NCBI RefSeq assembly: GCF_010728325.1
Contig: NZ_AP022570.1
Coordinates: 558,001-622,000, forward strand
Reading direction: 5' to 3'
DNA: 64,000 bases
Source: Mycolicibacterium poriferae
GTDB taxonomy: Bacteria; Actinomycetota; Actinomycetes; Mycobacteriales; Mycobacteriaceae
Both the position numbers and the translations under genes were made by a program. Of this stretch, positions 38-44,784 are shown piece by piece (within the stretch, counting starts at the first letter, position 1; every line of letters begins with the position of its first letter). The notes under the pieces were generated by a model. The model saw nothing but the letters and a program-made list of their open reading frames with translations, ran no database searches and was not told where the DNA came from.

Positions 38-189
38 CCGCCCATCATGTCATCACCGGGGGCCGATGGTGGCGCGCAAGCGCCGGACGACACCATATTT
101 GTAGTGTGGATGCGGTCGCGGACATCCGCCCATCAACGCTCGTGTGAAGCGTCGCCGGACCCCCGACGTTCCACCACCGTCAACAGGAT

Positions 190-1482: not shown

Positions 1483-1492
1483 GGTGACCGGC

Positions 1493-2410: not shown

Positions 2411-2439
2411 TCCCTCAGGCCCCGCCCTGGACATCACGC

Positions 2440-2904: not shown

Positions 2905-2910
2905 ACCTGC

Positions 2911-4383: not shown

Positions 4384-4468
4384 GTCCGATGAGCCTACTG
4401 GTCACAGCCGTATCACCGACCGGCGAGTGCGGCGAGAAGCACCGTTGACGGCAGCTACTATCGCTTGG

Positions 4469-5266
4469 GTGTCGGACGGGGAGCAACCCAAACCCAGACG
4501 GCGCCGAGGTCGGCGCCGCGGCCGACGCGCGGCAGGTCCGCCCGAACCCGGTAGCCAGGCCCCCGACAGCGCCCGGACCGCCGGCGCGAAGCAGAACGCA
4601 TCCACCGCGTCCGGGCAGAACAACACCCCCTCCCCCAAAGCCCAGAAGTCGCGGCCCCGCCGACCCCCGGACCGGCTGCGCACCGTGCACGAGACGTCGG
4701 CCGGCGGGCTGGTGATCGACGGGATCGACGGGCCCAAGGACCGCCAGGTCGCCGCGCTGATCGGGCGTGTCGACCGCCGCGGCCGCATGCTGTGGTCGCT
4801 GCCCAAGGGCCACATCGAGATGGGTGAGACGGCCGAGCAGACCGCGATCCGCGAGGTCGCCGAGGAGACCGGCATCCAGGGCAGCGTGCTCGCCGCCCTG
4901 GGCAGCATCGACTACTGGTTCGTCACCGAGGGCCGCCGCGTGCACAAGACCGTGCACCATTACCTGATGAGGTTTCTCGACGGTGAGCTCTCCGACGAGG
5001 ACATCGAGGTCACCGAGGTGGCCTGGGTGCCGCTGCACGAGCTGCCCGCCAAACTGGCCTACGCCGACGAACGGCGGCTGGCCGCGGTCGCCGACCAGCT
5101 GATCGACACGCTGCACACCGACGGGCCCGAGGCGTTGCCGCCGTTGCCGCCGACCACCCCGCGCCGGCGCGGCCAGACCCATTCGCACACCCGCAGACAC
5201 CGACCCGACCCCACCGCACAACCCCAGAACGGCCGGCGGACGAACGGCTGCGGACAAGGACCGTGA
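4469..5266 (+). CDS. mutT4: Nudix hydrolase MutT4
   Basis: The Nudix box is complete: [12 protein letters not shown] continuing into REVAEETGI fits GX5EX7REUXEEXGU. The first 60 residues are a basic, disordered tail ([14 protein letters not shown]). The C-terminus is also basic and His/Pro-rich. Nudix hydrolases cleave nucleoside diphosphate derivatives; the substrate of MutT4-type proteins is not settled. I prefer GTG 4469 (VSDGEQPK), because the family protein begins this way; an in-frame ATG at 4427 would add 14 residues. The stop overlaps the next gene's GTG by 4 bp, so translation of the two is probably coupled. Confidence 0.88.
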
Positions 5267-7743
5267 CGAGGCGGGCACACCGGGCATGGCTGCGGCTGGC
5301 CATCGCAGTCCTGGCGTTGTCGTTCGCCGTGGCGCCCACCGCAGCGGTCGCTGCGCACGCCCAGCCCGCGGCCAACCAGTTCCTGCGACTGACCATCGAC
5401 ACCGTGACCCCGGACGTCATGACGACCACCAGCGAACCCCTGGTGACCGTGACCGGCACCGTCAGCAACGTCGGTGACCGGCCGGTGCGTGATGTGGTCG
5501 TCCGGCTCGAACACGCGCCGGCGGTGACGGCCTCGACGTCGCTGCGCACCGATCTGTCCGGCAACCTCGACCAGTACCAACCGGTGTCGGACTTCATCAC
5601 CGTCGCCCCGGAGATGGCCCGCGGCCAGGAGGTGCCGTTCCGGCTGGCCGCCCCCGTCCGGTCCGCCACCTACGCGTCGCTGGACATCGACGACCCCGGC
5701 GTCTACCCGGTCCTGGTCAACGTCAACGGCACCCCCGACTACGGCGCGCCGGCCCGACTCGACGACACCCGCTTCCTGCTGCCGGTCATGGGCGTTCCGC
5801 CCGAAGCCGGCGCTGAACGGTCCGGGGCGAACACGCTGGAGTCGGCGGTGCCGCCCGACACCACCCGCCCGGTGGGTCTGACGATGTTCTGGCCGCTGGC
5901 CGACCGGCCCCGACTGGCCGCCGGACAGCCGGGCGGCACTGCCCCGGTTCGACTGATCGACGACGAGCTCGCGACGTCGCTGGCCCCGGGCGGACGGCTG
6001 GACACGATGCTGTCGGCGGTGGAGTTCGCGACCAGCCTGGAGGTCGATCCCGCCGGCGAGGTGACCCGCGCGCTGTGCCTGGCGGTGGATCCCGATCTCC
6101 TGGTCACCGTCAACGCGATGACGGGCGGCTACGTCGTCAACGACGCCGCCGACGCCGGCGCGGGCACCCCGACGCACCCGGGCACCGGCCAGCAGGCCGC
6201 CACCGACTGGCTCGCCCGACTGACCGCACTCGCCCAACGCATGTGCGTCGCGCCCACGGTGTACGCCCAGGCCGACCTCGACGCGCTGCGGCGGGTGGGC
6301 GACCCGGGCCTGTCGACGATCGCGACCACCACAGGCGCCGACATCGTCGACCGCCTGCTCGGCACCACCGCGATCCGCGGCGCGACCCTGATCGGCGACG
6401 GCCCGGTCACCGCGCCCGCCGTGCGCCTGTTGTCCGACGTCTACGGTCCCGCAGGGACCGTCGCCATCGGGGCCGCACCACTGGCCGGCCCCGGCGATGC
6501 GCTGGACGCCGCCCCCGCCACCGCCGACGCCGCGCCGGTGCGGTTCACCCCCGGCGTCACCGCGGCGCTGTTCGACCCCGCGGTCGGGGCGGCGCTCGGC
6601 GGCGCAGGCACCACCCCGGAGACACCGACCTACCTGGAGCCGTCGCTGGACATCCCGCTCAAACAGGATTCCGCCGTGGCCCGCCGCCAGGACGCGCTCG
6701 GCGCCATGCTGTGGCGGACACTGAATCCCGACCTCGCGCCGCGCGAGCAGATCCTGATGCCGCCGCTGGTGTGGAATCTCAGCGCCGACGACGCGCAGTC
6801 GATCCTCACCGCCCTCGCCAGCAGCATCCGATCCGGTCTCGCCGAGCCGCGCCCACTCCCCGAGGTCATCGCCGACGCCGCCGCGACGACCGAGTCGGCC
6901 CCGCTGCCGCAGGGAGCGCAGGGCAATCCGCGAGGCCGCTTCGACGACGGCGTGATCTCGGGCATCGCCGCCGTGACAGGCCGGCTGTGGGGGCTGACCG
7001 CCGCGTTGACCACCGACGAGCGCACCGGGCTCACCGGGTTCAGCTACACCGACCCGCTGCGCGAGGATCTGTTGCGGGCGCTGAGTCAGTCCGTGCCGCC
7101 CGACGCCCGCAACGGCCTGGCCCAGCAGCGGCTGACCACCGTCGGGCGCACCGTCGAGGACCTGTTCAACGCCGTCACGATCGTCAATCCGAGCGGCTCC
7201 TACACGCTGGCCACCGAACGCAGTCCGCTGCCGCTGGCGCTGCGCAACGACCTGCCGGTGCCGATCCGGGTCCGGCTCGACATCGACGCACCGCCGGGTA
7301 TGACGGTGACCGACATGGGTGAGATCGTGCTCCCGCCGGGCTTCCTGCCGCTGAAGGTGCCGATCGAGGTGCACTTCACCCAGCGGGTGGCGGTCGACGT
7401 CGCGCTGCGCACCGCCGACGGTCTGCCGCTCGGCGAACCGGTGCGGTTGTCGGTGCATTCCAACGCCTACGGCAAGGTGCTGTTCTTCATCACGCTGACC
7501 GGCGGGGTGGTACTGGTGCTGCTGGTGGGCCGGCGACTGTGGCACCGGTTCCGCGGTCAGCCCGACCGCGCGGACCTGGACCGCCCCGACCCGATCGAGG
7601 TCGCGCTGGCGTGGGACGACGGCGACGACGGCCACGCGACCGGGGACCGTGCCACCGGTGCCGGCCAGGACCGGGCCGCCCCCGGACCCGACGGTTCCCG
7701 CGGGCGACGCACCTCGACGACCACCGGTGGCACCGGTGAGTGA
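5263..7743 (+). CDS. Secreted or membrane-anchored DUF6049 protein (Rv3909-like)
   Basis: The 826-residue protein starts with a signal peptide ([16 protein letters not shown]...) ending near AAHAQPA. A long extracytoplasmic region follows, and a single C-terminal membrane helix ([18 protein letters not shown]) leads to a short acidic cytoplasmic tail. The N-terminal part reads like a beta-rich NEW3-type fold ([13 protein letters not shown]). The function is unknown. Its fixed place between mutT4 and murJ, with overlapping stop and start codons on both sides, links it to cell-envelope biogenesis. It overlaps mutT4 by 4 bp and murJ by 8 bp. Confidence 0.85.
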
Positions 7744-10700
7744 TCCGGTGCGGCGCACCGCGGAGGGGCCCGCGCCGCGCCCCGAGCTGTCCGATTCGGC
7801 GGTCGTCTCGCGCTCGTGGGGGATGGCAATAGCCACGCTGGTCAGCCGGCTCACCGGGTTCGCCCGGATGGTGCTGCTGGCCATCCTGCTCGGCGGGCCG
7901 CTGCTCAGTGCCTTCACCGTTGCCAACCAGCTGCCCAACCTGATCGCGGCGCTGGTGCTGGAGGCCACGTTCACCGCGATCTTCGTGCCCGTGCTCGCCC
8001 GCGCCGAACGCGACGACCCCGACGGCGGAGCGGCGTTCGTGCGCCGCCTGCTCACGCTGGCCACGACGCTGCTGCTGGTCGTCACCGCCGTGTCGATCGT
8101 GGCGGCGCCGCAGCTGGTGAACCTGATGCTGGGGTCCGACCCGGAGGTCAACCGCCCGCTCACCACCGCGTTCGCGTATCTGCTGCTGCCGCAGATCATC
8201 TTCTACGGCCTGTCGTCGGTGTTCATGGCGATCCTCAACACCCGCAACGTGTTCGGGCCACCGGCCTGGGCTCCGGTGGTCAACAACATGGTCGCCCTGG
8301 TCACGCTCGGGCTGTTCGCGCTCGTCCCCGGCGAGCTGTCCATCGACCCGGTCGCGATGGGCACCGCCAAACTCCTGGTGCTCGGCATCGGTACCACGCT
8401 GGGCGTGATCACCCAGGCCGCCGTGGTGTTCGTGGCGCTGCGTGCCCGCCACGTCAGCATGCGGCCGCTGTGGGGTATCGACGACCGGCTCAAGAAGTTC
8501 GGCATGATGGCACTGGCGATGGTGCTCTACGTGCTCATCAGCCAGGCAGGTCTGGTGGTGGGCAACCGGATCGCCGCCGGCGCAGCCGATTCGGGGCCGG
8601 CGATCTACAACTACACGTGGCTGATCCTGCAGCTGCCGTTCGGCATCATCGGCGTCACCGTGCTGACCGTGGTCATGCCGCGGCTGTCCCGCAACGCGGC
8701 CGCCGAGAACGGCCCCGCGGTGCTCGCCGACCTGTCGCTGGCCACCCGGCTGACCATGGTCACGCTGATCCCGATCGTCGCGATGATGACCGTCGGCGGG
8801 CCCGCGATCGGCAGCGCCCTGTTCTCCTACGGCAACTTCGGCGCCGCCGACGCCGGCTACCTCGGCGTGGCGATCTCCCTGTCCGCGTTCACGCTGATCC
8901 CATATACCCTGCTGCTGTTGCAGCTGCGGGTCTTCTACGCCCGCGAGGAGCCGTGGACCCCGATCGCGCTGATCGTCGTGATCACCGCGGTGAAGATCGC
9001 GGCGTCGGTGGCGGCGCCGCACCTGACCGACGACCCGAAGCTGGTGGCCGGCTACCTGGGTCTGGCCAACGGGCTGGGCTTCCTCGCCGGGGCCGCGGTC
9101 GGCCACTTCCTGCTGCGGTCCCGGCTGGATCCGCCGGACGGGCACCTGCTCAGCCTCGACGTGGTGCGGACCATCCTGGTCACCATCACCGCGTCGCTGG
9201 GAGCGGGCCTGCTCGCGCACATCGCCGATCGCATGCTGGGTCTGGAGGTGCTGACCGATCAGTGGGGCGGCGGGGGCTCGCTGCTGCGGCTGGCCGTCCT
9301 GGGCCTGATCATGGTGCCCGTCATCGCCGGGGTGCTGCTCGCGGCCCGGGTACCCGAGGCCGAGGCCGCACTCGCCGTGGTGCGTCGCCGCCTCGGATCC
9401 CGCCGGGCAACCCCGCCCGCCCGCGCTCTACCGTCCGTCCCGCCACGATCCGAGCGGCCCCTCACGTACCCTGATCGCAAGAGTTCGTCCTCGCCGCACC
9501 GCCACCAGCAGCCTCATCCGGTGCAGCGCGGACCTTCGGCCGACGTCGCCGACGACTGGAGGAGGGGGAGAGGATCCGCGGTGAGCGACAGACCCGCAAA
9601 CGGTTCTCCGGCCGATCACGATTCCGCGGACAGCCCTGAAACCACTCGTCTCCCCCGGCCGACCGGTCCCGCGGCAGACGACTTCCAGCCCGACGTACCC
9701 GCCGCCGCGAAGCCCGATCCGGTGTCGGCACCGGAGGGTCGCAGGCCCGCGAACGACTACGCCGGTGACCCGACCCGCGAACCGGTGGCGTTCGAATCCC
9801 CGCGCGAGCAGACCGTCGAGACGCCGTTGTCCGGAGACGACGTCCACCTCATTCCCGGCGCGACGATCGCCTCCGGCCGCTACCGGCTGCTGGTTTTTCA
9901 CGGCGGACCCGCCAACCTGCAGTTCTGGCAGGCCCTGGACACCGCGCTGGACCGACAGGTCGCGCTGACGTTCGTCGACCCCGACGGCACCATGCCCGAC
10001 CACGAGGTGCAGGAGATCCTGACCCGCACCCAGCGGCTCGGACGCATCGACATGCCCGGCGTGGCACGTGTCCTCGACGTCGTCAGCAGCGGCTCGGGAG
10101 GCCTGGTCGTGTCGGAGTGGATCCGGGGCGGATCACTGGCCGAGGTCGCCGACACCGCGCCGTCCCCGATCGGCGGTGCCCGGGCCGTGCAGTCGCTGGC
10201 CGCGGCCGCCGACGTCGCGCACCGGCAGGGCGTCGCGTTGTCGGTGGATCACCCCAGCCGGATCCGGGTCAGCATCGACGGCGACGTCGCACTGGCGTTT
10301 CCGGCCACGCTGGCCGACGCCACCCCCGAGAACGACATCCGCGGGATCGGCGCCGCGCTGTACGCGCTGCTGGTCAACCGCTGGCCACTGCCCGAACGCG
10401 GTGAGCCCAGCGGCCTGGCGCAGGCAGACCGCGACGCCGCGGGTCAGCCCGTCGAACCCAAGACGGTCGACCGCGACATCCCGTTCCAGATCTCGGCTGC
10501 GGCCATCCGGGCCGTCCAGGACGGCGGGGCGATCCGCAGCGCGGGCACCCTGCTGAACCTGCTGCAGCAGGCCACCGCCGTCGCCGACCGCACCGACCAC
10601 CTCGCCCCCGTCGAGGCCGCGCCCGAACCCGCCGCCGAGGACTGGAAGCCCGAGCCGGATCCCGAGGCCGAGGCGCGCCGCCGCAAGGGCCTGATCATCG

Positions 10701-34494: not shown

Positions 34495-34568
34495 GGGGCT
34501 ATAGCTCAGGCGGTTAGAGCGCTTCGCTGATAACGAAGAGGTCGGAGGTTCGAGTCCTCCTAGCCCCA
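34495..34568 (+). tRNA. ileT: tRNA-Ile (GAT)
   Basis: A full cloverleaf is present: acceptor GGGGCTA/TAGCCCC, D-stem GCTC/GAGC, anticodon loop CTGATAA with anticodon GAT, T-stem GGAGG/CCTCC with loop TTCGAGT, and discriminator A. The CCA end is not encoded (ACG follows). It sits between gyrA and tRNA-Ala as in other mycobacteria. Confidence 0.97.
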
Positions 34569-34585
34569 CGGAAAGGTTCACATCG

Positions 34586-34711: not shown

Positions 34712-34773
34712 GGGGCCTTAGCTCAGTTGGTAGAGCGCTGCCTTTGCAAGGCAGATGTCAGGAGTTCGAATCT
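34712..34773 (+). pseudogene. alaT: 5' fragment of host tRNA-Ala (TGC), split by the mobile element
   Basis: The first 62 nt of a normal mycobacterial tRNA-Ala are intact: acceptor 5' strand GGGGCCT, D-arm GCTC/GAGC, anticodon arm CTGCC-TTTGCAA-GGCAG with anticodon TGC, and T-arm 5' strand AGGAG with loop TTCGAAT. After TCGAATCT the sequence changes to TATCTCTAGG, which cannot pair as the T-stem and lacks the acceptor 3' strand. The missing 11 nt, CCTAGGCTCCA, are found at 44766-44776. Joining the two restores a perfect 73-nt tRNA. The gene is therefore broken in this genome. Confidence 0.93.
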
Positions 34774-34783
34774 TATCTCTAGG
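34766..34783. other. Left attachment junction (attL): core plus left arm
   Basis: Core TCGAATCT is followed by arm TATCTCTAGG. With the right arm CCTAGAGATA it would make a 28-bp attP in the circular form: two perfectly inverted 10-bp arms around an 8-bp spacer, the layout of a tyrosine recombinase core site. Confidence 0.85.
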
Positions 34784-34841
34784 AGAGGTAGATGAAAGTG
34801 GGTGTGACCAGCGGTGATACCGCCACGGTCATATCCATGAC

Positions 34842-34912
34842 GGGGCCATAGTTCAACGGTAGAACGGGGCCTTTGCAAGGCTCAAATCGGGGTTCGATTC
34901 CCCGTGGCTCCA
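34842..34912 (+). tRNA. Element-borne tRNA-Ala (TGC), likely functional replacement
   Basis: A complete 71-nt cloverleaf: acceptor GGGGCCA/TGGCTCC, D-stem GTTC/GAAC with GG in the loop, anticodon stem GGGCC/GGCTC with loop TTTGCAA (anticodon TGC), 4-nt variable loop, T-stem CGGGG/CCCCG with loop TTCGATT, discriminator A73. Positions 3 and 70 form G:U, the main identity element for alanyl-tRNA synthetase. Apart from acceptor and anticodon loop it differs strongly from host alaT, so it is not a recent duplicate. It starts 68 bp inside the element, in the direction of the host tRNA promoter. Confidence 0.92.
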
Positions 34913-34940
34913 CCTTTGGTCGGTACGGCCGGCGGTGACA

Positions 34941-35555
34941 CTACGCCCGTCTGATCCGCCCGATGCCGGGCAGGAACCGGTCGACAGCCTCACAGTAGTC
35001 GCGGTAGGCCTGGCCGTGGGTGGCGGTGAGGTAGGGCTCTTCGATCAGGCGGACCTGCAGTTGACTACCGATGATGATCATCACGACGCCGGCGAGTGCA
35101 ATACCGTTGGGAACCGCAAAGGTTAGTCCGATAACCATGACGTTGATCGACGTGTAGATGGGGTTGCGCACGATCGCGAAAATGCCGGTGGTGACCAGTG
35201 GCGGGCGTTCGGTGGGGTCGACAGTGGTGCGCCACGAAGATCCCATTGCGCGTTGGGCGCCGAACGCGGCGAACACGCCCAGTGCGGCGAGCATGATGCC
35301 GGCGACGCGGCTGGGCCCGTGGTCCAACAGTGGCACTGGCTGCAGGCCCAGCAGTTCGGCGATGGGGGCGGCGATGCCGGGCAGCAGCATGCCGGAGGCC
35401 AGGGTTCCTCGGGCCCACCACTGTTTGGGTGTGCGAGGGATGCGGATGCCGCTGTCGCCGGTGCGATGGCGTTGAATACGGGCTCGCACGTAGCCGTCGA
35501 GCAGCCAGAAAGCCGCGACGAGGAGCAAGGCGATGATGGCGTACATCGCGGACAT
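34941..35555 (-). CDS. Isoprenylcysteine carboxyl methyltransferase-family membrane protein
   Basis: The 204-residue protein has four to five membrane helices (MYAIIALLLVAAFWLLDG at the start). The C-terminal ICMT/PEMT-like signature is RNPIYTSINVMVIGL, followed by LIEEPYLTATHGQAYRDYC and VDRFLPG. This fold binds S-adenosylmethionine at the membrane. True prenyl-cysteine substrates are absent from bacteria, so the substrate is unknown; methylation of lipids or small thiols or metals is possible. It lies 34 bp downstream of a soluble methyltransferase gene and divergent from the metal-responsive regulator. M. tuberculosis also has an extra gene (Rv1993c) beside cmtR-ctpG, but it is not this protein. 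Confidence 0.75.
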   Translation of the reverse strand: MSAMYAIIALLLVAAFWLLDGYVRARIQRHRTGDSGIRIPRTPKQWWARGTLASGMLLPGIAAPIAELLGLQPVPLLDHGPSRVAGIMLAALGVFAAFGAQRAMGSSWRTTVDPTERPPLVTTGIFAIVRNPIYTSINVMVIGLTFAVPNGIALAGVVMIIIGSQLQVRLIEEPYLTATHGQAYRDYCEAVDRFLPGIGRIRRA

Positions 35556-35589
35556 CGTGGTCGGCTTTCGTGGTCGCGGGGGTGGCAGG

Positions 35590-36186
35590 TCAGATCTTTC
35601 GGGCGGCCCCGATGAAGAGGAGCCCGCGAAGGTGGTGTTCGATGCGGGCGGTGCCGTGCAGGCCGTGGCGGGCCAGTTCAGCGGCGAATTCGTCTGACTC
35701 GAAGCGGTTTTCGCGTGGGTGCACGGTGAATGTGCGGAACGCCCAGGTGTCGAGCATGCGGCGTGGAACTTCCTCGAACAACAGCAGCCCACCGGGGCGC
35801 AACACTCGGGCGATCTCGGCGACGGCCAGCTGCCAGTGCGGGACGTGGTGGATGATGCCGAAGTCAACGACGGTGTCGTGGCTGGCGGTCGGCTGATGGA
35901 TGTCGCAGACATCGCCGACTGACAGGGATACGGGCCTGTGATGGAGGCGTTTGCGGGCGAGCTCGACCATGGTGTCGTCGAGGTCGAATGCGGTGACGTG
36001 GCGGGCCTGGAGCCGGTCGAGGATGACTTCGGAGCCGACACCTCGTCCGCAGCCGGTCTCGAGTACGTCCTGGCCGGTGAGGTCGCCACCGGCGAGGCGG
36101 CGAAACCATGCGGCTTCCCGATGGTGTTGATGGGCAGCCCGAATCGGGTTGTTCATCGCTGCCCGTTCGATGGTGTTGAGCTTCAC
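35590..36186 (-). CDS. Class I SAM-dependent methyltransferase
   Basis: The 198-residue protein has the Rossmann methyltransferase motifs: motif I VLETGCGRGVGSEV, the acidic VTAFDLDDTMVELAR at the second strand, VVDFGIIHHVPHWQ at motif IV, and VLRPGGLLLFEEVP at motif V-VI. This matches the UbiE/COQ5-like Methyltransf_11 group. The start is GTG 36186 with GGTGG just upstream. It is transcribed away from the CmtR-like regulator and ahead of the ICMT-like gene, so it may be metal-responsive. Its substrate is not evident. Confidence 0.8.
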   Translation of the reverse strand: MKLNTIERAAMNNPIRAAHQHHREAAWFRRLAGGDLTGQDVLETGCGRGVGSEVILDRLQARHVTAFDLDDTMVELARKRLHHRPVSLSVGDVCDIHQPTASHDTVVDFGIIHHVPHWQLAVAEIARVLRPGGLLLFEEVPRRMLDTWAFRTFTVHPRENRFESDEFAAELARHGLHGTARIEHHLRGLLFIGAARKI

Positions 36187-36268
36187 CGCGCCACCTCAGC
36201 CTTCATCAATCGCAAGCGCTGTCATCGACTAATTCCGATCAATCTATGTTGTAGGCTATCATCGCGAT
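36187..36268. promoter_or_regulatory. Divergent promoter/operator of the metal-responsive unit
   Basis: The 82 bp between the methyltransferase and the regulator contain a possible -10 element TAGGCT at 36252-36257 and the 8-bp palindrome ATCGCGAT (36261-36268) immediately before the regulator's ATG. There is no Shine-Dalgarno sequence, so the regulator mRNA may be leaderless. The palindrome is a plausible operator part for an ArsR/SmtB repressor. Confidence 0.35.
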
Positions 36269-36649
36269 ATGTCGATGAAAAGTATGGGTGCTGCGCCGCC
36301 GAGTGCATCGCGCGACGAGTTGGCGGGGGCGGTGGCGTTGTTTCACAGTCTGTCCGATCCCACCCGGTTGGCGATCGCCCGCCGCCTAGCTGGTGGTGAG
36401 GCTCGGGTGGTGGATCTGACCGGTGAGTTGGGATTGGCGCAATCGACGGTGTCGTCGCATCTGGCGTGCCTGCGCGACTGTGGGCTGGTGGATTTCCGGC
36501 CCCAGGGCCGCGCCTCGGTGTATCGGCTGGCCCGGCCGGAACTGCTGGACATGTTTCGCGCGGCCGAGGCGGTGTTGGAGGCGACCGGCAACGCCGTCGC
36601 CTTGTGCCCCAACTACGGCCACCCGACTGAACGGAAGGTAGCGCGATGA
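36269..36649 (+). CDS. ArsR/SmtB-family metal sensor, CmtR-like
   Basis: This 126-residue winged-helix repressor has the HTH core LTGELGLAQSTVSSHLACLR. Cys67 and Cys71 form a C-x3-C pair in the recognition helix (ACLRDCGLV), and Cys113 lies near the C-terminus (ALCPNYG). The same three-cysteine layout (Cys57, Cys61, Cys102) binds Cd(II)/Pb(II) in M. tuberculosis CmtR, where metal releases the repressor from DNA. The gene overlaps the downstream P-type ATPase by 4 bp (ATGA), matching the CmtR-CtpG pairing. Cd/Pb sensing is therefore a strong inference. Confidence 0.88.
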   Translation: MSMKSMGAAPPSASRDELAGAVALFHSLSDPTRLAIARRLAGGEARVVDLTGELGLAQSTVSSHLACLRDCGLVDFRPQGRASVYRLARPELLDMFRAAEAVLEATGNAVALCPNYGHPTERKVAR

Positions 36650-38604
36650 GCGAGGCGTGCGGCTGCGGCAGCGACGACCGCAACGAAGGCGAGCAGGAAC
36701 CCGAACGGCTCTGGGAGATCACCGAACTACGCGCGGCCGCAGCCGCGGGGGTGGTGCTGCTGGCCGGCTATGCGGTCGGCTGGTCCGGCGGCCCCCATGT
36801 GGTCGAAATCGGCCTGTATGCGCTGGCGTTGGCGATCGGGGCCTACACGTTCGTACCCTCGACGCTGCGCCGGTTAGCGCAAGGCAAGATCGGGGTCGGC
36901 ACGCTGATGACGATCGCCGCCATCGGCGCGGTGATCCTCGGCGAGGTCGGCGAAGCCGCCATGCTGGCGTTCCTGTTCTCCATCAGCGAGGGCCTCGAAG
37001 AATACTCACTGGCCCGGACCCGCCGGGGACTGCGCGCGTTGTTGGCGCTGGTGCCCGACGAGGCCACCGTCCTGCGCGACGGCGCCGAAATCACCATCCC
37101 GCCAGCGGAGTTGCGGGTCGGTGACCGGATGCTGGTCAAGCCCGGCGAACGGGTCGCGACCGACGGCACCATCACCTCGGGGCGCACCGCACTGGATGTC
37201 TCGGCCATCACCGGCGAATCCGTTCCGGTGGAGGCCGGACCCGGCAGTGATGTGTTCGCCGGATCGATCAACGGCACCGGGGTGCTCGAAGTCGAGGTCA
37301 CCTCCAGCGCTGCTGATAACTCGTTGGCCCGCATCGTGGCGATCGTGGAGGCTGAGCAGTCCCGCAAGGGCGCCAGCCAGCGCCTGGCCGACCGCATCGC
37401 CAAACCGCTTGTTCCGGCGATCATGGTCGCGGCCGCGCTGATCGCCGCCATCGGTTCCGTGTTGGGTGATCCGCTGGTGTGGATTGAACGTGCCCTGGTC
37501 GTGCTGGTGGCCGCCTCCCCGTGCGCGCTGGCCATCTCGGTGCCGGTCACCGTCGTCGCCGCGATCGGCGCCGCCTCCAAGCTCGGCGTCCTCGTCAAAG
37601 GCGGCGCCGCGCTGGAAGCCCTCGGCGCGGTGCGCACCGTCGCGCTAGACAAGACCGGCACCCTGACCGCCAACCAGCCCACCGTCATCGACGTCGCCAC
37701 CACCAACGGCAACAGCCGCGACCACGTGTTAGATGTGGCGGCGGCGTTGGAGGCCCGCAGCGAACACCCGCTGGCTGCAGCGATTCTCGCCGCCACCGAG
37801 GGGCCGGTCCAACCAGCTGAGGATGTGGAGGCGGTGACCGGGGCCGGACTGCTCGGCCACCGTGACGGCCACCGGCTACGGCTCGGGCGCCCCGGCTGGC
37901 TCGACCCCGGACCCTTGTCCGAACACGTCGCGGCCATGCAGGCCGCCGGCGCCACCGCCGTGCTGGTCGAAGACAACGGTCAGGTCATTGGGGCGGTCGC
38001 GGTGCGCGACGAACTGCGGCCCGAAGCCGCCCAGGTCGTCGAACACCTGCGCCGCGGCGGCTATCAGGTCGCCATGCTCACCGGCGACAACCAAGCGACC
38101 GCCCAAGCCCTGGCCCGCCAGGTGGGGATCGATACGGTGCATGCCGATCTGCGGCCCGAAGACAAGGCGGCGCTGATCGGTCAACTGCGCCAACGCTCCT
38201 CGACGGCCATGGTCGGTGATGGCGTCAATGACGCCCCCGCTCTGGCCACCGCCGATTTGGGGATCGCGATGGGTGCGATGGGCACCGACGTGGCCATCGA
38301 AACCGCCGACGTCGCCCTCATGGGTGAAGACCTGCGCCACCTCACCCAGGCCCTGGCCCACGCGCGGCGAGCCCGGCGCATCATGCTCCAAAACGTCGGC
38401 CTCTCACTGGGATTGATCGCAGTGCTCATCCCGCTCGCCCTCACCGGTGTGCTCGGCCTGGCCGCGGTCGTCGCGGTGCACGAACTCGCCGAAATCGTCG
38501 TCATCGCCAACGGTGTCCGGGCCGGGCGCACCAAACCACTGGCACAGCCAGGCCGGGACCATGATCCGGTGGCCGAAGTAGCCGCCTCCGCGATATCGCG
38601 TTGA
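36646..38604 (+). CDS. Heavy-metal P1B-type ATPase, CtpG-like
   Basis: This 652-residue metal-exporting ATPase has the actuator TGES (ITGESVPVEAG), the phosphorylation motif DKTGTLTAN with Asp335, and the hinge GDGVNDAPAL. The transmembrane metal site is SPC (AASPCALAISVP) rather than CPC, with HELAEIVV in a late helix, as in the CtpG/P1B-4-like group. The N-terminus has only a short Cys pair (ACGCGSDD) and no HMA domain. It is translationally coupled to the CmtR-like sensor. Export of Cd, Pb, Co or Zn is likely; the sequence cannot decide which. Confidence 0.9.
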   Translation: MSEACGCGSDDRNEGEQEPERLWEITELRAAAAAGVVLLAGYAVGWSGGPHVVEIGLYALALAIGAYTFVPSTLRRLAQGKIGVGTLMTIAAIGAVILGEVGEAAMLAFLFSISEGLEEYSLARTRRGLRALLALVPDEATVLRDGAEITIPPAELRVGDRMLVKPGERVATDGTITSGRTALDVSAITGESVPVEAGPGSDVFAGSINGTGVLEVEVTSSAADNSLARIVAIVEAEQSRKGASQRLADRIAKPLVPAIMVAAALIAAIGSVLGDPLVWIERALVVLVAASPCALAISVPVTVVAAIGAASKLGVLVKGGAALEALGAVRTVALDKTGTLTANQPTVIDVATTNGNSRDHVLDVAAALEARSEHPLAAAILAATEGPVQPAEDVEAVTGAGLLGHRDGHRLRLGRPGWLDPGPLSEHVAAMQAAGATAVLVEDNGQVIGAVAVRDELRPEAAQVVEHLRRGGYQVAMLTGDNQATAQALARQVGIDTVHADLRPEDKAALIGQLRQRSSTAMVGDGVNDAPALATADLGIAMGAMGTDVAIETADVALMGEDLRHLTQALAHARRARRIMLQNVGLSLGLIAVLIPLALTGVLGLAAVVAVHELAEIVVIANGVRAGRTKPLAQPGRDHDPVAEVAASAISR

Positions 38605-38676
38605 CCACCGGCATCATCCATCGCGTAACCAGCCAGGCGAGGAGGTCAGCAAGGTGTGGTGTTTGCCGATGACTTA

Positions 38677-39006
38677 TCACGCCTTTGCGTCACGGCCGGC
38701 AGCGGTCAGGCCGAGACTGTGCGCTCGCCGCCAGGCGGCCGCCAGGTTTGCGCTTCGGCTCTTGCCTGATACCTGGCAGAGGTACGTGCTGCATTCTTTG
38801 TTGTTGGTCTGCCACCGCAGTTCGGCGTAGATACGCAGGTATCTGCGCCGCAGGACGACCCGTCCGAGCGCACCACCACTGTCGTTCACCACACGGCATC
38901 GGCGGCCGCCTGCGGCGTGGTCCTGCTCAAGGGCTTGCCCCTGCTTGGTCCAGTGGACCGGCGCTTTCCACTGCTCGTCGCGGACCGGGGTGCGATTCCA
39001 GCCCAC
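38677..39006 (-). CDS. Small hypothetical protein downstream of the XRE-ImmA gene
   Basis: I do not recognise this 109-residue basic protein. The C-terminal half has coherent secondary-structure-like composition (RYLRIYAELRWQT, CSTYLCQVSGKSRSANL, AAAWRRAHSLGL) ending in a helix, unlike a random antisense frame. GTG 39006 lies 15 bp after the XRE-ImmA stop, on the same strand, so co-transcription is likely. Two cysteines are present. The 72 bp between its stop and the ATPase stop show nothing else. It could be a partner of the regulator or an unrelated passenger. Confidence 0.5.
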   Translation of the reverse strand: MGWNRTPVRDEQWKAPVHWTKQGQALEQDHAAGGRRCRVVNDSGGALGRVVLRRRYLRIYAELRWQTNNKECSTYLCQVSGKSRSANLAAAWRRAHSLGLTAAGRDAKA

Positions 39007-39021
39007 GATCGCGCCCGGTGT

Positions 39022-40119
39022 TTAGACCATCGTGAGGTGCCGGGCGCCGGGCCTGTCGCTTACGCCGAAGAGCGCGCCGCGTTGCGCGCCGGTGAGCAGC
39101 GTAATGTCGTCGAGTTCACTGGCGGTGTAGCCGCCGGCCGCGAGTTGGCCGAGTACGTCGCCGACGAGACGGGGCATCTCCTCGGCCACGCCGGGGCGGG
39201 GGCCATACATGCGGCCGGTCTCGTTGAGCAGCCGGAACATCGAGCGGTACTGGTAGTCGGAGAGCACACCTCGCTCGCGGGCCCGCACGACCAGCGACGA
39301 CGCGCTCACACCCCAGGTGAGGCGCAGCTCATCGAGTTCATGCACGGCCCGCACTGACACGCGGTCCAAGTCAAAGCCGATGTCGGCGATGGGGGCGAGG
39401 AACTCGGCGGCGAAACTGTTGGCCCGCCGCTCGGCCTCGGCGGGGCTGACCAGCGTCATCGCATCCATGACCAGGTGGCCGAGTTCGTGGGCCAGCGTCA
39501 TCCGCATGCGGTCGGGCGGCCGGGCCGCGTTGACGTACACCAGGTGCGGGTGATACTCGCTTGCTCGCAGGGTCACCGCGTCGATCTCGTCGTCGAGGAA
39601 ACCATCGACCACAACGAACACCCCTGCGGCTTCGAGCAATTCGGTCATCGAGCGGATCGGGCCGGCGACGCGCCACAGGCGGCGCAGAACCTGGGCGACG
39701 GTGATCTCTCCGAGCTCGGAGGCGTAGTCGGCCGGGTCGAGATCGGGAAGCGCAAGCTTGGGGTTGATGTCGGCGCGGGACACCAGGCGGCCGATCCGCA
39801 TCGCGACAAGATTCGCGCGCGCCCACACGCGGTCACGCTTCCACTCGGCCGCACTCAGGTTGGCCCGGAAGTGGCTGCCCTGGGCCGGGGACCGGGTGAA
39901 GGGCACGCACAGCGCTTCCGGGCGGCATTCCATGGCCTGCGCGTAGTCGAGCAAGGCCTTCCCTGCCAGGGGCAGCAGCCCCGCCTCGACCCTGCTGACG
40001 TGCGAGGCCGACACCCCGGCCTCGTCGGCCAGGCGCTTTTTCGACCACCCACGCGACAACCGGGTCAACTGCACCATCACGCTGTTCGCCGCGTCGTCGT
40101 ACGGGTCCGGTGCCGTCAC
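39022..40119 (-). CDS. XRE helix-turn-helix and ImmA/IrrE metalloprotease fusion
   Basis: The 365-residue protein joins an N-terminal XRE-type HTH (SKKRLADEAGVSASHVSRVE, about residues 25-45) to an ImmA/IrrE zinc protease domain with HELGH at 211-215 and a downstream ERRANSFAAEFLAP helix. In mobile elements such as ICEBs1 an ImmA protease cleaves its partner repressor to trigger excision; fused versions are widespread regulators. GTG 40119 is chosen because GGGGAGG precedes it at good spacing; an open extension to 40134 lacks this. It is divergent from the recombinase operon, which suits control of that operon. Confidence 0.85.
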   Translation of the reverse strand: MTAPDPYDDAANSVMVQLTRLSRGWSKKRLADEAGVSASHVSRVEAGLLPLAGKALLDYAQAMECRPEALCVPFTRSPAQGSHFRANLSAAEWKRDRVWARANLVAMRIGRLVSRADINPKLALPDLDPADYASELGEITVAQVLRRLWRVAGPIRSMTELLEAAGVFVVVDGFLDDEIDAVTLRASEYHPHLVYVNAARPPDRMRMTLAHELGHLVMDAMTLVSPAEAERRANSFAAEFLAPIADIGFDLDRVSVRAVHELDELRLTWGVSASSLVVRARERGVLSDYQYRSMFRLLNETGRMYGPRPGVAEEMPRLVGDVLGQLAAGGYTASELDDITLLTGAQRGALFGVSDRPGARHLTMV

Positions 40120-40389
40120 AGATCGCCTCCCCAACCGTCTCGGTGCTGTCTTTCGACACTAGCCCGCCGCCGCCGCGAATTCGCGCAGAAACACCGTTTG
40201 ATCTGCGTTTTCCCAGTTCACGCCCACTAACGGACGTGGGGCGTGTGTGGCTGGTGTGACGATAGCGCAACTCCAGCCCGTGACGCCTGCAGACCGGCTG
40301 CTCCGTATGCGATCGGCGTGTCTTCCGGCCTCAAACTTTACCCCGGTCCGCACGATTCTATGCAAGGTTTTCGGCTGAAAGGCGGGGTC
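40120..40389. promoter_or_regulatory. Divergent control region between XRE-ImmA and the recombinase operon
   Basis: This 270-bp gap must contain promoters for both directions and is the natural operator site for the XRE-ImmA protein. I see an imperfect inverted repeat GCCCAC / GTGGGGC around 40223-40245. Weak A/T-richer patches are near 40178-40215 and 40330-40375. No coding sequence is convincing. Confidence 0.4.
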
Positions 40390-41091
40390 GTGACAGCTCC
40401 GATGGATCAACCCAACACACCCGACCGTCCGGTCTCCCGCAAGGAGGCCCGACGGCTGCTCAACCAGGTGGCGGTCGGGGTGGGGGCGATGCTGCTGGCC
40501 GCCGTCGATGACTGGAACGCCTTGTCGGCCCGGCACTCCGCACATCTGCGAACCGTGATGCAAGGGCTCGGGCGCGGCACATATGTTGCGGCCGCCGTCG
40601 CGGCGGGCACCGATGTGTGGCTGAGCACCCGCGGCATGCATCCACCCGGACACACGGTCGTCAAGCCCTACCGCTGGCCCGAGATCAACAGCCGCGGCAA
40701 GACGCACATGATGATCCACCACAACGAGATGGAACCGACCACCCCGCGGCGGACCGCGTTCTTCACCCAGGATTCGGCGACCCTGGGCCTGATCGGCGAT
40801 CCCACCCATTGCGAGCTGACCTGGGACTACGACATCGTCACCGACACCCATATCCGCCGGATCTGGGTCAGCGCGCCGGGCGTCGACTGGGACCGCTTCG
40901 AGGTTCCGATGGCCAAGGTGCAGGCCCAATACGCGACGTGGCGCAAGCGCGACATGAAGTGGCTGCCCGGGGCACTTCCTGCCGACACCGCCGCAGCCGC
41001 GCCGATGCCGGCCCGCCAACCGCAGGAAGACCTGCGGCCCGACATCCAGGTGCGGCCCCGGCGCCCCGAGGAAACCCGGGATGCCGAGTGA
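40390..41091 (+). CDS. Unrecognised first gene of the recombinase operon
   Basis: The 233-residue protein matches no family I know. The N-terminus (SRKEARRLLNQVAVGVGAML) looks helical. The central part has an aromatic and His-rich region (KPYRWPEINSRGKTHMMIHH, then CELTWDYDIVTDTHIRRIW). The C-terminus is a disordered Pro/Arg tail. There is no signal peptide, membrane helix or HTH. GTG 40390 follows AAAGGCGGGG; ATG 40402 is an alternative. The stop overlaps the TnpA-like start as GTGA, so it is coupled to the recombinases. Accessory roles such as directionality factor, target selection or DNA-end protection are only guesses. Confidence 0.75.
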   Translation: MTAPMDQPNTPDRPVSRKEARRLLNQVAVGVGAMLLAAVDDWNALSARHSAHLRTVMQGLGRGTYVAAAVAAGTDVWLSTRGMHPPGHTVVKPYRWPEINSRGKTHMMIHHNEMEPTTPRRTAFFTQDSATLGLIGDPTHCELTWDYDIVTDTHIRRIWVSAPGVDWDRFEVPMAKVQAQYATWRKRDMKWLPGALPADTAAAAPMPARQPQEDLRPDIQVRPRRPEETRDAE

Positions 41092-42200
41092 AGGCGGCAC
41101 CGGTGACCATCCACGGACGGGCGTCGTGGACGGTCGTAGACGCTTCAGGCCTACCGGTCGGGGAGGTCGAGCAGTTCCTGCACTGGCTGCGTGCGATCGG
41201 CCGGTCGCAGAACACCGTCCGCTCGTATGCGCGCCACCTGAGCTTGTTCTACCGGTGGCTGGGCGCACGCGGAATCGACTGGGACGCCGTAGTATTCGAC
41301 GCACTGTGTGATTTCGTGGGGGCGCTGTCGGCCGGTTTGCCCCCGCTGCCGACCCGGTCCGGTAGCCGGGCGCCGGGAACGGTCAAAGCGGTGAGCGCGG
41401 CCGTGCGCGAGTTCTACGAGTTCCACCGCGTCGAAGGCCGCGGACCGCAGGATCTGGTGTTGACCCGCAACCCGTCGCGGCTCCCGCGCCGGGCACACAG
41501 CTTCCTGGCCCACATCGAGCAACGCCACCCCAGCGCGGTCTCCCGGTTGACCCGGCCGGGCAAGCAGCCGGCAGAGACCGTGCAGCTGATCGACTTCGAG
41601 GCCGACTTCGCGACGTTGCTGGCGGCGGCGTCGACCCACCGCGACCGGCTGCTGCTCTCCGCGCTCTATGACCTGGGCCTGCGGGTCGGGCAGGCGTTAG
41701 GCCTACGGCACGCCGACCTGGACCCGATGCGCAAGCGAGTGCAGGTGTGCCGCCGGGAGGACAACGCCAACGGGGCGCTGTCAAAGCAGCGAGCGCAATT
41801 CGCGGTGGCCGCGCCCCGCCGGTTCTTCGACCTGTACGCCGCTTACCTCCTCAGTGAGATCTCCGACCTGGACAGCGATTACGTGTTCGTCAACCTGTCC
41901 CGGCCCCCGGTCGGCGGGCCGCTGTCGTACTCGAACGCCTACCAGATCATCGAGCACATCGGCTCCGTAGCGGGCCTTGACGGGCTGCACCCACACATGC
42001 TGCGCCATACCCACGCAACTGCGCTGGCCAAGGCCGGATGGACGTCGGCTGAGATCGCTGCCCGGCTTGGCCAGTCGCACGCCGCCAGCGCCGACGTCTA
42101 CATCCACCTCGCCAGCGACGATCTGGCAGACCGATTGCGCCGCACCGAGCAGCTGGTGTGGGCGCCACCGCAGCGCGAGGCAGGCCATGAGAAACATTGA
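41088..42200 (+). CDS. Tyrosine recombinase, Tn554 TnpA-like
   Basis: This 370-residue recombinase has an N-terminal SAM-like core-binding domain (LHWLRAIGRSQNTVRSYARH). The C-terminal catalytic domain carries Arg199 (DLGLRVGQALGLRHADL), His303 and Arg306 in HPHMLRHTHATALAKAG, a late His in LGQSHAASAD, and nucleophile Tyr338 in DVYIHLAS. All active-site residues are present. Length and order (followed by a long recombinase and a short TnpC-like gene) match Tn554 TnpA (361 residues). GTG 41088 overlaps the previous stop, and its own stop lies 14 nt inside the next gene. It probably cuts the TCGAATCT core. Confidence 0.9.
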   Translation: MKAAPVTIHGRASWTVVDASGLPVGEVEQFLHWLRAIGRSQNTVRSYARHLSLFYRWLGARGIDWDAVVFDALCDFVGALSAGLPPLPTRSGSRAPGTVKAVSAAVREFYEFHRVEGRGPQDLVLTRNPSRLPRRAHSFLAHIEQRHPSAVSRLTRPGKQPAETVQLIDFEADFATLLAAASTHRDRLLLSALYDLGLRVGQALGLRHADLDPMRKRVQVCRREDNANGALSKQRAQFAVAAPRRFFDLYAAYLLSEISDLDSDYVFVNLSRPPVGGPLSYSNAYQIIEHIGSVAGLDGLHPHMLRHTHATALAKAGWTSAEIAARLGQSHAASADVYIHLASDDLADRLRRTEQLVWAPPQREAGHEKH

Positions 42201-44196
42201 TTCCCACCCTGACTCCACGCGCAGAGGCCGCCGTTCGCCGCTACGGGTACCCGACGGGCCGTGGTGTCAGCCGACGTGGCAGGTGGTCGAACCGGCCGGA
42301 GACCGCCGCCGCCAGGCGGCGGACCCCTGCGCCGTCGACGCATGCAACAGCGAGCGGTACTGGCTGGGCGGCCCCCACTCCGCAGGCGCCGAGCGGCGCG
42401 GATTGTGCTACGCGCACTACTTCCAATGGTTCCGCGCCGGCCAGCCCGCCGACTTCACCGCATGGGCAACCTTCGAAGCCCAACCCGTCGGCGCCCCGCG
42501 CGGCCACCTCTCGGCCCAGATCGTCGACTTCCGGCGGCTACCGCAGATCGCGGCCGATGAGATCCGGTTCGTCGTCGCCACCAAGGTGCGCCGCGGCGAC
42601 TGGACCCCCAACACCAGCCTCCGCCGCTTCTTGATGGTGCTCATCGACACCGCCGACGGCCGGATCACCGACTCCCTCACCGAGCGACCCGCCGGCGAGT
42701 GGCTTCTGCTGTGCCGGCAGCATTGGCCGCACGCGAGCTCGTTCGACTCCCTGTGTGCACCCTACATTCGGCGCTTCTTCCGACTCCTCGACGGCGCCAC
42801 CAACCCGGACCCGTGGGCCGACGACCACTGGCACTGGCGAGACGGATTCGAATTCGTTCTCGACGCCACCCAATCCGGATCGACACACACCGCCGTGGAC
42901 TGGTCGACGGTGACCGTGCCGTGGCTGCGTGACGCGGTCAAAGAACTCGCACGCCGGCAGCTCACCACCGCCACCCTGGCCTGGGGCACGCTGACCCAGT
43001 GGGTGCGCGCCACCCGCCAGCTCGCCCGGTTCCTCACCCGCGACGACGAATCACCGGAACCGTCCGCGGTGACCAGGCCGGTCTTCCTTGACTACCTGGC
43101 GTGGACCCGGCGACCGGACACCCAAGCGGACGCGCGGTTGGCCAATACCGCCGCCTACCTGCTGGAGTCGCTGCACGACACCCAGATCGTGCCCGCTCTC
43201 GGGTCGGCGGTGTTCCTCCGACGAGGCGAGAACGTGCACCGCAAGACCCGCAGCCCCCGCCCGTTCCCGCCGGACGTAATCGAACGCGTCGACACGCTGA
43301 TCGTCGACAACCCCGCAACCGACCCCACCCTGCGGTCGATGATCGCCACCACCCGGTGGGCAGGCTGCCGCATCTCCGAACTGGTCGCCCTGCCCATCGA
43401 CTGCCTGCACCGCTCCGACGCGGGCTACTGGATCGAATATTGGATGCCCAAAACCCGGGCCTGGCGCCGATTCCCCATCCCGGACAGCCTCGCAACCATC
43501 GTCCTCGACCAGCAGACCCGCGTGCGCGACACCTACGGCCCCGACGCCGAGCACCTATTCCCCGGCGCCCGGTCCAACGCCGCCGCCGGCCGCACCCAAC
43601 CCTGGTCGACCAGCGGCCTGCGGCACCGCCTCGCCGCACTGTTCACCGAACACGGCATCACCACCTCGACCATCACCGGCGAGCCGATCTCCGGCGGCGA
43701 TGTGCACCGCTTCCGGCACACCATCGGAACCACACTGCTCAACAACGGCTGGACCCAACAAGAAGTGCGCGACTTCCTCGGCCACCACAGCGACACCATG
43801 ACCTCGGCATACGCCCGCATCACCGACGACACCCTGGCCCGCAAAGCACGTGAATTCTGGAACAGCGCCGCAACAGACACGACCAACACCGACGCCGACG
43901 TGGAGCGGCTCCGGGCCCGGTTCACCACCGCGCTGCCCAACGGATTCTGCACTCTCCCAACGGCGCAACGCTGCGAATTCCGGCCCAACCCCTGCCTCGA
44001 CTGCTCCTTCCACGACCCCGGCGGCCGGGTCTTCCTCGGCGCCCATATCGCGCACCGCGACCAACTGCAACGCCTCACCGCCGACGCTCACGAGCGCGGC
44101 GACGCAGCCGCCGTCGAATTGAACACGGCGATGCTCGACAAGGTCTCCAAACTGATCAGCGAAATCGACCCGAACACCACGCAGGAACCTCAGTGA
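42187..44196 (+). CDS. Long tyrosine recombinase, Tn554 TnpB-like
   Basis: This 669-residue recombinase has an extended N-terminal region with a Cys/His cluster (CAVDACNSERYWLGG then CYAHYF). A core-binding domain follows, and the catalytic domain carries Arg395 (TRWAGCRISELVALP), HRFRHTIGTTLLNNGW, LGHHSDTMTS and nucleophile Tyr542 (SAYARI). A second Cys/His cluster near the C-terminus (CEFRPNPCLDCSFH) may bind zinc. Tn554 TnpB has 630 residues and the same layout. ATG 42187 overlaps the TnpA-like gene by 14 bp, and the stop overlaps the TnpC-like gene by 4 bp. Confidence 0.9.
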   Translation: MRNIDSHPDSTRRGRRSPLRVPDGPWCQPTWQVVEPAGDRRRQAADPCAVDACNSERYWLGGPHSAGAERRGLCYAHYFQWFRAGQPADFTAWATFEAQPVGAPRGHLSAQIVDFRRLPQIAADEIRFVVATKVRRGDWTPNTSLRRFLMVLIDTADGRITDSLTERPAGEWLLLCRQHWPHASSFDSLCAPYIRRFFRLLDGATNPDPWADDHWHWRDGFEFVLDATQSGSTHTAVDWSTVTVPWLRDAVKELARRQLTTATLAWGTLTQWVRATRQLARFLTRDDESPEPSAVTRPVFLDYLAWTRRPDTQADARLANTAAYLLESLHDTQIVPALGSAVFLRRGENVHRKTRSPRPFPPDVIERVDTLIVDNPATDPTLRSMIATTRWAGCRISELVALPIDCLHRSDAGYWIEYWMPKTRAWRRFPIPDSLATIVLDQQTRVRDTYGPDAEHLFPGARSNAAAGRTQPWSTSGLRHRLAALFTEHGITTSTITGEPISGGDVHRFRHTIGTTLLNNGWTQQEVRDFLGHHSDTMTSAYARITDDTLARKAREFWNSAATDTTNTDADVERLRARFTTALPNGFCTLPTAQRCEFRPNPCLDCSFHDPGGRVFLGAHIAHRDQLQRLTADAHERGDAAAVELNTAMLDKVSKLISEIDPNTTQEPQ

Positions 44197-44606
44197 GCGC
44201 CGACGACCGCGAACGCCGCACCGCACGCCTGACCGCAGCAGCCGCCGCCCGCACCACCGACGCCACCGCCCGCGCCCGCCGCGCGATCACCCGACTGCGA
44301 AACACCGGTCAGCCCGTCACCTTCGTCGACGTCGCCCGCGACGCCGGTGTATCGACCAGCTTCCTCTACCAGCACAGCCAACTACGCGACGACATCACCA
44401 ACCTCCGCACCACCACGACCACCACGGCGACGGCCGCAACAGGGCGCGCGGCAAGCCTGGAATCGCTACGCACCAAACTCGCCACCGCGATCGCCCGCAA
44501 CCGTGAACTCACCGAACAACTCGCGCAGCTTCGCACCGAGAACGAAGCACTTCGCAGCCGACTCCTCGAATCCCGCATCCCTGCGGCGACACCGCATCCG
44601 TCATAG
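44193..44606 (+). CDS. TnpC-like accessory protein (DUF6262 type)
   Basis: This 137-residue protein is Thr/Ala-rich with an HTH-like segment (VTFVDVARDAGVSTSFLYQH) and a C-terminal coiled coil (LRTKLATAIARNRELTEQLAQ, split: ELTEQLAQLRTENEALRSRL). This matches the short third protein of Tn554-type elements, TnpC (125 residues), which in Tn554 affects transposition efficiency and orientation. GTG 44193 overlaps the upstream stop. It is the last gene of the element; the right junction begins 142 bp downstream. Confidence 0.82.
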   Translation: MSADDRERRTARLTAAAAARTTDATARARRAITRLRNTGQPVTFVDVARDAGVSTSFLYQHSQLRDDITNLRTTTTTTATAATGRAASLESLRTKLATAIARNRELTEQLAQLRTENEALRSRLLESRIPAATPHPS

Positions 44607-44747
44607 CCGGACCGGACCCAACCAGAACCAACGGGGCCACAGCGCAGCCCACCACCGTCGACGACTTCCTACAGATAACCCGGCCACGACGACGGACCTA
44701 CGCCAAGCCGCGGCCCCGTCGTAGACGTCGACTCCACACGCCGCTCA

Positions 44748-44776
44748 CCTAGAGATATCGAATCTCCTAGGCTCCA
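44748..44776 (+). pseudogene. alaT: Right junction (attR) with the 3' fragment of host tRNA-Ala
   Basis: Arm CCTAGAGATA (44748-44757) belongs to the element. Core TCGAATCT (44758-44765) is followed by CCTAGGCTCCA (44766-44776), which is the T-stem 3' remainder, the acceptor 3' strand AGGCTCC and the discriminator A of host tRNA-Ala. No promoter or 5' half is attached, so this fragment cannot give a tRNA. Confidence 0.92.
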
Positions 44777-44784
44777 CAAGTGCG

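Follow-up and report, generated by a model that had tools for sequence, protein, structure and literature searches.

How does a bacterium read the codon GCA once its single gene for tRNA-Ala(UGC) has been cut in two? The question is raised by a 64,000-nucleotide stretch of the genome of Mycolicibacterium poriferae (contig NZ_AP022570.1, positions 558,001 to 622,000; in our numbering G000:C1:558001-622000), hereafter the window, in which a mobile element of 9,986 bp sits in the T-loop of the host gene alaT and carries a tRNA-Ala(UGC) gene of its own. We consider it highly probable that the element, a transposon related to Tn554 and to the strand-biased circularizing integrative elements (SE), destroyed the host gene and that the tRNA gene it brought along took over. 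All coordinates are window positions unless a locus is named; G-numbers denote sampled genomes, with G000 the window's own, and L-numbers the loci that were read. The parts of the locus that carry this reading are the following:

34712..34766, + strand: 5' fragment of host alaT, to T-loop position 55 (100% to the alaT query; joined flanks equal the alaT of G175)
34767..34772, + strand: left 6-bp core CGAATC, on the side that varies between insertions and here identical to the target core (junction reads)
34773..44758, + strand: mobile element, 9,986 bp (junctions; element in G230 equal in length)
34773..34782, + strand: left terminal sequence TTATCTCTAG, inverted relative to the right end (similar ends in relatives)
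34842..34914, + strand: element-borne tRNA-Ala(TGC) with G3:U70 (ARAGORN; Rfam, 67.3 bits; fold)
44669..44678, + strand: subterminal repeat CTACAGATAA, 80 bp inside the right end (equal spacing in relatives)
44749..44758, + strand: right terminal sequence CTAGAGATAT (junction; relatives)
44759..44764, + strand: right 6-bp core CGAATC, the target's own (junction reads)
44765..44778, + strand: 3' fragment of host alaT, mature end at 44776, then CA (100% to the alaT query)

A 75-nt alaT query matches at 34712-34773 (query positions 1-62) and at 44758-44778 (positions 55-75), with 100% identity in both cases, and only 8 bp are common to the two junctions. When the flanks are joined across the element, they equal the intact alaT of the relative G175 over the 74 bases compared. 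No tRNA is called by ARAGORN at 34712, and the 73-nt hybrid running across the split has a folding energy of -17.6 kcal/mol with a z of +1.25 against shuffled sequences, folding no better than its own shuffles, as compared to -31.6 (z -2.65) for the element tRNA and -32.1 (z -2.54) for the intact alaT of G175; by this measure, the hybrid transcript is predicted not to fold as a tRNA. An earlier account drawn from the letters of the window (the sequence-only reading) had claimed that alaT is split in its T-loop, that the joined halves give an intact tRNA and that the element's end does not restore the gene, all of which agrees with these results; the location of the split stands as well, while the exact ends differ by a few bases inside the shared repeat. 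The objection that the split might be an assembly artefact, which that reading had raised against itself, is rejected because independent genomes show the same split, including G230, with an element of equal length, and the single-contig genomes G002 and G210.

The tRNA gene of the element lies 69 bp inside its left end and is complete and divergent, as had been proposed from the sequence; with regard to its origin, the best phage match reaches 77%. Across the whole genome of G000 (5.93 Mb, 2 contigs), the Rfam tRNA model (cut-off 29 bits) returned 46 tRNA-type hits, 45 of which were typed by ARAGORN, the 46th being the broken alaT. The alanine anticodons among them are CGC, GGC and one TGC, which is that of the element, and no second intact tRNA-Ala(TGC) was detected in the genome by DNA search and typing of 45 of the 46 hits, in line with the earlier claim that mycobacteria have one tRNA-Ala reading GCA. 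By the standard decoding rules, GCA codons need tRNA-Ala(UGC), and insertion into alaT should therefore be lethal without the tRNA gene of the element. Codon GCA accounts for 155 of the 14,858 codons in 28 mechanically picked long open reading frames (ORFs) of the window, those of the element included. In this reading, the element tRNA would be transcribed and charged with alanine, and its absence would kill the host.

The junctions record how the element arrived. At the 17 readable left junctions with alaT, 15 of them from the genus set and the others from M. gordonae CTRI 14-8773 and Tsukamurella sp. M9C, we found 15 different 6-mers: CGAATC occurs at 3 of the 17 and another core at 14, and all start with CG except for CAGTAA in G322 and GGGCCC, with two extra bases, in G306 (15/17). 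The right junctions at alaT, by contrast, carry the target's own CGA(A/T)TC in 12 out of the 12 read. Copies of the element occur outside alaT too, in part in genomes whose alaT is intact, and have the right cores CGGGCG (G200), CGAGCG (G279), CGACTC (M. hubeiense), CGGGGT (plasmid of G306), CGGTAC (M. farcinogenes plasmid) and CTAACG (Gordonia aichiensis). The left core is CGAATC in four such off-target copies (G200, G279, the M. farcinogenes plasmid and G. aichiensis), which is expected if the donor sat in alaT. A variable left and a constant right core make up a footprint of the Tn554/SE type and, as judged from the junctions, point to many insertions; the cores fit the rule described for SE and Tn554, by which 6 bp from one donor flank reappear at the other flank of the new copy (PMC10214605). 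They record the type of site each copy came from. Precise excision, which the sequence-only reading had regarded as a way out for the host, often would not restore alaT, because the left core differs from CGAATC at 14 of the 17 junctions; in the window copy, the left and right cores happen to match. Relatives of the SE type reportedly form circular copies, with no empty site left behind.

The window is not an isolated case. Within a genus sample of 396 genomes, G000 included, the tRNA end of the element was matched at 120 bits or more in 21. A dedicated search for native alaT in 22 genomes, i.e., these 21 and G175, recovered a full-length gene in five (G175, G279, G111, G112 and G275), and none was seen in 17 of the 21 matching genomes. 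The 5' part of alaT is still found in 15 of those 17, and the 5' half was not found in G068 and G118; for G200 and G144, the read of the broken alaT comes from the end of a contig, and a complete element tRNA was read at another site. Outside the genus sample, alaT is split in M. gordonae CTRI 14-8773 and in Tsukamurella sp. M9C, the latter with the same split and a different tRNA-Ala(TGC). With the element's recombinase TnpA as query (E up to 1e-60, 5 candidates per genome), at least three of 397 genomes in the order matched, the window's included; with its second recombinase, TnpB (E up to 1e-40, 3 candidates per genome), at least one of 396 in the phylum did, the window's own.

Where no full-length alaT was seen in the genus set, the element-type tRNA scores 64.1-68.1 bits against the Rfam model, in 17 of 17 genomes, with alaT remnants that reach the cut-off at 30-44 bits. 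Where the native gene is present, a comparison group that is small, with four genomes of which two have a good copy, the element tRNA scores 67.3 (G279), 65.1 (G275), 45.1 (G112) and 38.7 bits (G111), and the copies in G111 and G112 carry deletions and substitutions. In 14 aligned copies from alaT loci, mean pairwise identity is 98.0% within the tRNA versus 72.9% in the preceding 70 columns, and a stem pair altered on both sides, C5:G68 to U5:A68, is found in G197 and in both copies of G306. At the alaT loci of G002, G215, G210, G118 and G306, nothing matched the window's recombinases, and the tRNA nevertheless scores 64-68 bits at all five; the G306 alaT copy, which has kept both ends, is better called non-autonomous. 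In G111 (L104, L149), a damaged tRNA of the element type lies a short way behind an intact native alaT, a picture that would result if the host had recovered alaT and the substitute had decayed afterwards.

Taken as a sequence of events, the recombinases would insert the element into the T-loop of alaT at a CGNNNN core, with the target's core coming to lie at the right junction and the 6-bp core carried from the previous site at the left. Insertion would destroy alaT, which neither end of the element would rebuild, and the tRNA gene just inside the left end would take over the decoding of GCA. The host would come to depend on this tRNA, a dependence that fits the comparative pattern, and the tRNA could outlive the rest of the element. 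Its main role is more likely self-complementation, making a conserved essential gene usable as a target, and addiction would then be a consequence.

A number of points weigh against this account. Movement by a copying route without excision is supposed by analogy with the SE/Tn554 literature, and some of the left cores may have mutated after insertion. The gyrA gene holds zero GCA codons, and a promoter scan gave no sigma-70-type match upstream of the element tRNA. The alaT remnant of the window still scores 42.1 bits in the Rfam model, and broken alaT genes exceed the cut-off at 8 further loci and at L144 and L187; a functional hybrid tRNA is unlikely from its folding, despite this score. The damaged copies of G111 and G112 are still typed as tRNA-Ala(TGC) by ARAGORN, and in G275 and G279 an intact native alaT coexists with a good element tRNA, which can thus exist without need. 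Several of the 21 matching genomes are drafts, where a missing alaT may be an assembly gap, and in M. palustre, also a draft, the right alaT junction is present and neither the 5' half of alaT nor the element tRNA was found.

The best surviving alternative, which we nonetheless regard as unlikely, makes addiction the selected function, with the tRNA kept mainly as a punishment for loss of the element and self-complementation secondary. The lack of any other intact tRNA-Ala(UGC) in the genome speaks for it, as do two copies without recombinases, read in part, that carry DNA methyltransferase genes, one together with Vsr, as possible restriction-modification cargo. However, insertion without the tRNA should itself be lethal, so rescue must come first, and at the alaT loci of G002, G215, G210 and G118 the tRNA is kept while the recombinase match is gone, which leaves the element as a whole unprotected. 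Of the earlier claim that the element makes itself indispensable, host dependence fits the comparative pattern, and self-complementation is a more likely main role than addiction.

Far less probable is that the element tRNA is ordinary cargo, e.g., against tRNA-cutting defence, with the split tolerated and GCA read by the hybrid or by another isoacceptor. Arrays of tRNA genes are known in mycobacterial genomes, plasmids and phages (PMC5966550), the hybrid remnant passes the Rfam cut-off, and good tRNAs occur in the off-target copies of G275, G279 and the M. farcinogenes and M. avium plasmids. Against this stand the high scores in all 17 genomes without full-length alaT, the poor fold of the hybrid, the failure to find the 5' half of alaT in G068 and G118, and the fact that related elements hold, at one and the same position, either of two clearly distinct types of tRNA-Ala, each with the target's isotype. 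We give next to no weight to a conventional tRNA-targeting island with an end that restored alaT at first and has since decayed. Tyrosine-integrase islands usually rebuild the tRNA (PMC4383910), and the two cores match in G000; however, with only 8 bp common to the two junctions and 15 different left cores among the 17 left junctions read, there is no place for a homologous core, and in G230, with an element of identical length, alaT is likewise not restored.

The remaining features of the element and its surroundings are these:

34495..34569, + strand: host tRNA-Ile(GAT), intact neighbour of alaT (ARAGORN)
34941..35558, - strand: cargo, PEMT/ICMT-like methyltransferase (Pfam PF04191 in frame 34941-36089; 205-aa form in relatives)
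35590..36186, - strand: cargo, SAM methyltransferase (Pfam PF08241)
36269..36649, + strand: cargo, ArsR/SmtB-type metalloregulator (Pfam PF01022, NF033788)
36646..38604, + strand: cargo, heavy-metal (cadmium-type) P-type ATPase (TIGR01525, TIGR01512)
39022..40119, - strand: protein with helix-turn-helix and IrrE/ImmA-like (M78) domains (Pfam PF06114, PF01381)
40390..41091, + strand: 233-aa ORF of no known family, directly upstream of tnpA (57-95% identity in 8 relatives)
41085..42200, + strand: TnpA-like tyrosine recombinase, 371 aa (Pfam PF00589, PF02899; HxxRH motif)
42187..44196, + strand: TnpB-like long tyrosine recombinase, 669 aa (Pfam PF00589; HxxRH motif)
44193..44606, + strand: TnpC-like DUF6262 protein (Pfam PF19776)

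The tnpA and tnpB genes overlap, with no gene between them. TnpB matches recombinases on Enterococcus and Staphylococcus plasmids, which we take to be of the Tn554 type, at about 28% over part of its length, and, outside the window's own family, TnpA identity to mycobacterial plasmid relatives is about 35% at best. The M78 protein, the 233-aa ORF, TnpA and TnpB co-occur, as far as contigs reach, in most relatives with at least 79% TnpA identity, and the M78 protein and the 233-aa ORF were not matched in the group at 72% (M. sherrisii, M. palustre and the second M. hubeiense element). The 233-aa ORF has no match in Pfam, NCBIfam or PHROGs, and its predicted structure, with a mean pLDDT of 56.9 over 9 sequences, was too poor for a fold search. 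A PHROGs scan of 9 element proteins and one doubtful ORF returned integrases, regulators, methyltransferases and an ATPase, and no structural, packaging or lysis family. The orientation of the recombinase genes is not fixed, as L133, L138 and L140 have them turned round with respect to the tRNA end when set against the window. In M. hubeiense (L082/L117), a second, different element of the family lies inside the tnpB of the first, at GTTCGACTCC, a T-loop-like sequence. Elsewhere in these genomes, the GyrA ORF of G002 (L083, 3679-7452) encodes 1257 aa, as compared to 841 aa for that of the window, and a segment in its interior looks to us like an intein.

Copies of the element are also found on plasmids of M. 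farcinogenes, M. avium, M. marinum and Candidatus M. methanotrophicum, with a good element tRNA in the first two and one of 30.2 bits, typed as Glu(TTC) by ARAGORN, in M. marinum. In G306, one copy on the plasmid (C2) and one at the chromosomal alaT share 99.65% identity over 3.4 kb (L144, 786-4184; L143, 806-4202); neither has a recombinase match, and each encodes a C5 methyltransferase, a GIY-YIG protein and a Vsr protein. On the M. avium plasmid pP4-4a, typed as mobilizable, the left end of the element with its good tRNA adjoins an N6/N4 DNA methyltransferase gene (L208, 5932-8450).

The tRNA gene itself varies outside the genus: different tRNA-Ala(TGC) genes, of 74.2 and 74.8 bits, are found in the elements of Tsukamurella sp. 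M9C and Gordonia aichiensis. On plasmid 8 of T. tyrosinosolvens (L177, 12752-21564), a related element borders directly on sequence resembling the 3' half of another tRNA, and an array of 22 tRNA genes begins next to the element's right end. T. sputi has an intact alaT and, on contig C77 (L218, G424:C77 1031-1104), a Tsukamurella-type tRNA-Ala(TGC) that agrees with the element tRNA of M9C in its 3' part but not in its 5' part. The tRNA array of G111 (L168) holds a tRNA-Ala(TGC) with ends resembling the Tsukamurella and Gordonia element tRNAs, and is a possible source. Two further observations concern intact alaT genes: that of T. sputi (L198, about 6009-6645) lies directly next to sequence resembling an integrase (30% to TnpA), which may mark a conventional island by which the tRNA was restored, and in G. 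aichiensis a 45-bp copy of the alaT 3' end (98%; G425:C64:79578-79622) lies 2.4 kb from the intact gene, like the leftover of such an island.

For the replacement of alaT by the transposon's own gene, the outcome seen is that a single-copy tRNA gene gives way to that of a mobile element; the native copy degenerates or is lost altogether, and the new one persists beyond the loss of the recombinase genes. This also implies that some mycobacteria probably do not use a native gene for tRNA-Ala(UGC). We lean, if only slightly, towards a broader statement: that, in mycobacteria and Tsukamurella, one Tn554/SE-like lineage has taken the place of an essential chromosomal tRNA gene again and again, for the most part irreversibly, with a left core that is usually foreign and excision that usually does not restore alaT, with GCA decoding handed to a mobile-element tRNA that outlives the element, with recombinases adapted to the target, and with a tRNA slot that is exchangeable, perhaps from tRNA arrays. 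This lasting replacement of a probably essential tRNA gene is, to us, the most interesting part.

With regard to known systems, the element is Tn554-like, as the sequence-only reading had proposed: it has two tyrosine recombinases, one of them long (371 and 669 aa, PF00589, HxxRH), and a donor-derived 6-bp footprint without target duplication. A DUF6262 gene in the tnpC position is a candidate counterpart of tnpC. Tn554 targets att554 in radC, whereas the target here is the T-loop of alaT. Tn554-related elements of Actinobacteria, both plasmid and chromosomal, likewise combine an ordinary and a long tyrosine recombinase, often with a TnpC-like partner, and in the available text of that report 'tRNA' occurs twice, for genomic islands near tRNA genes and not for the Tn554-related elements (PMC3414803). 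SE, described from Gammaproteobacteria, share the two tyrosine recombinases, the short imperfect inverted ends and the copying of 6 bp from one donor flank to the opposite flank of the new site, but their core genes are intA, tfp, intB and srap, a set absent here, where TnpA and TnpB overlap with no gene between; the word 'tRNA' does not occur in the text of that paper as available (PMC10214605). Unlike in a conventional tRNA-targeting genomic island, the element's end does not rebuild the 3' part of the tRNA.

Among the top-ranked results of searches of open-licence papers, there was no report of a Tn554/SE-type element with a replacement tRNA, in agreement with the novelty that the sequence-only reading had claimed for a Tn554-type element, whereas the strategy itself is known from phages. 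Rhizobium phages such as vTRX32-1 interrupt tRNA-Leu and carry a complete tRNA-Leu, with replacement presumed, but they are phages rather than transposons and have a 12-bp repeat at both ends (PMC8631192). In mycobacteriophages (Fionnbharth, Gaia and others), tRNA-dependent lysogeny has been shown by experiment; these temperate phages each have a single integrase and integrate at tRNA-Lys, Leu or Ile2 through a common core of 8-17 bp, and 'tRNA-Ala' occurs nowhere in the available text of the report (Guerrero-Bustamante and Hatfull, 2024, PMC10865867). Here, too, attB lies in a host tRNA gene that is not rebuilt, but the agent is a Tn554/SE-like transposon with a 6-bp footprint in the alaT T-loop, the PHROGs scan gives none of the structural, packaging or lysis families of a temperate phage, and its tRNA seems to be a fixed gene in several species. 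The phenomenon is confirmed, recurs in many mycobacteria and is coherent as a mechanism. It is a known strategy of phages in transposon form, by which tRNA-dependent integration extends from phages to transposons, and what is new in it, as far as the literature search shows, is the transposon setting, the target in the alaT T-loop, the footprint and the lasting replacement of the tRNA gene.

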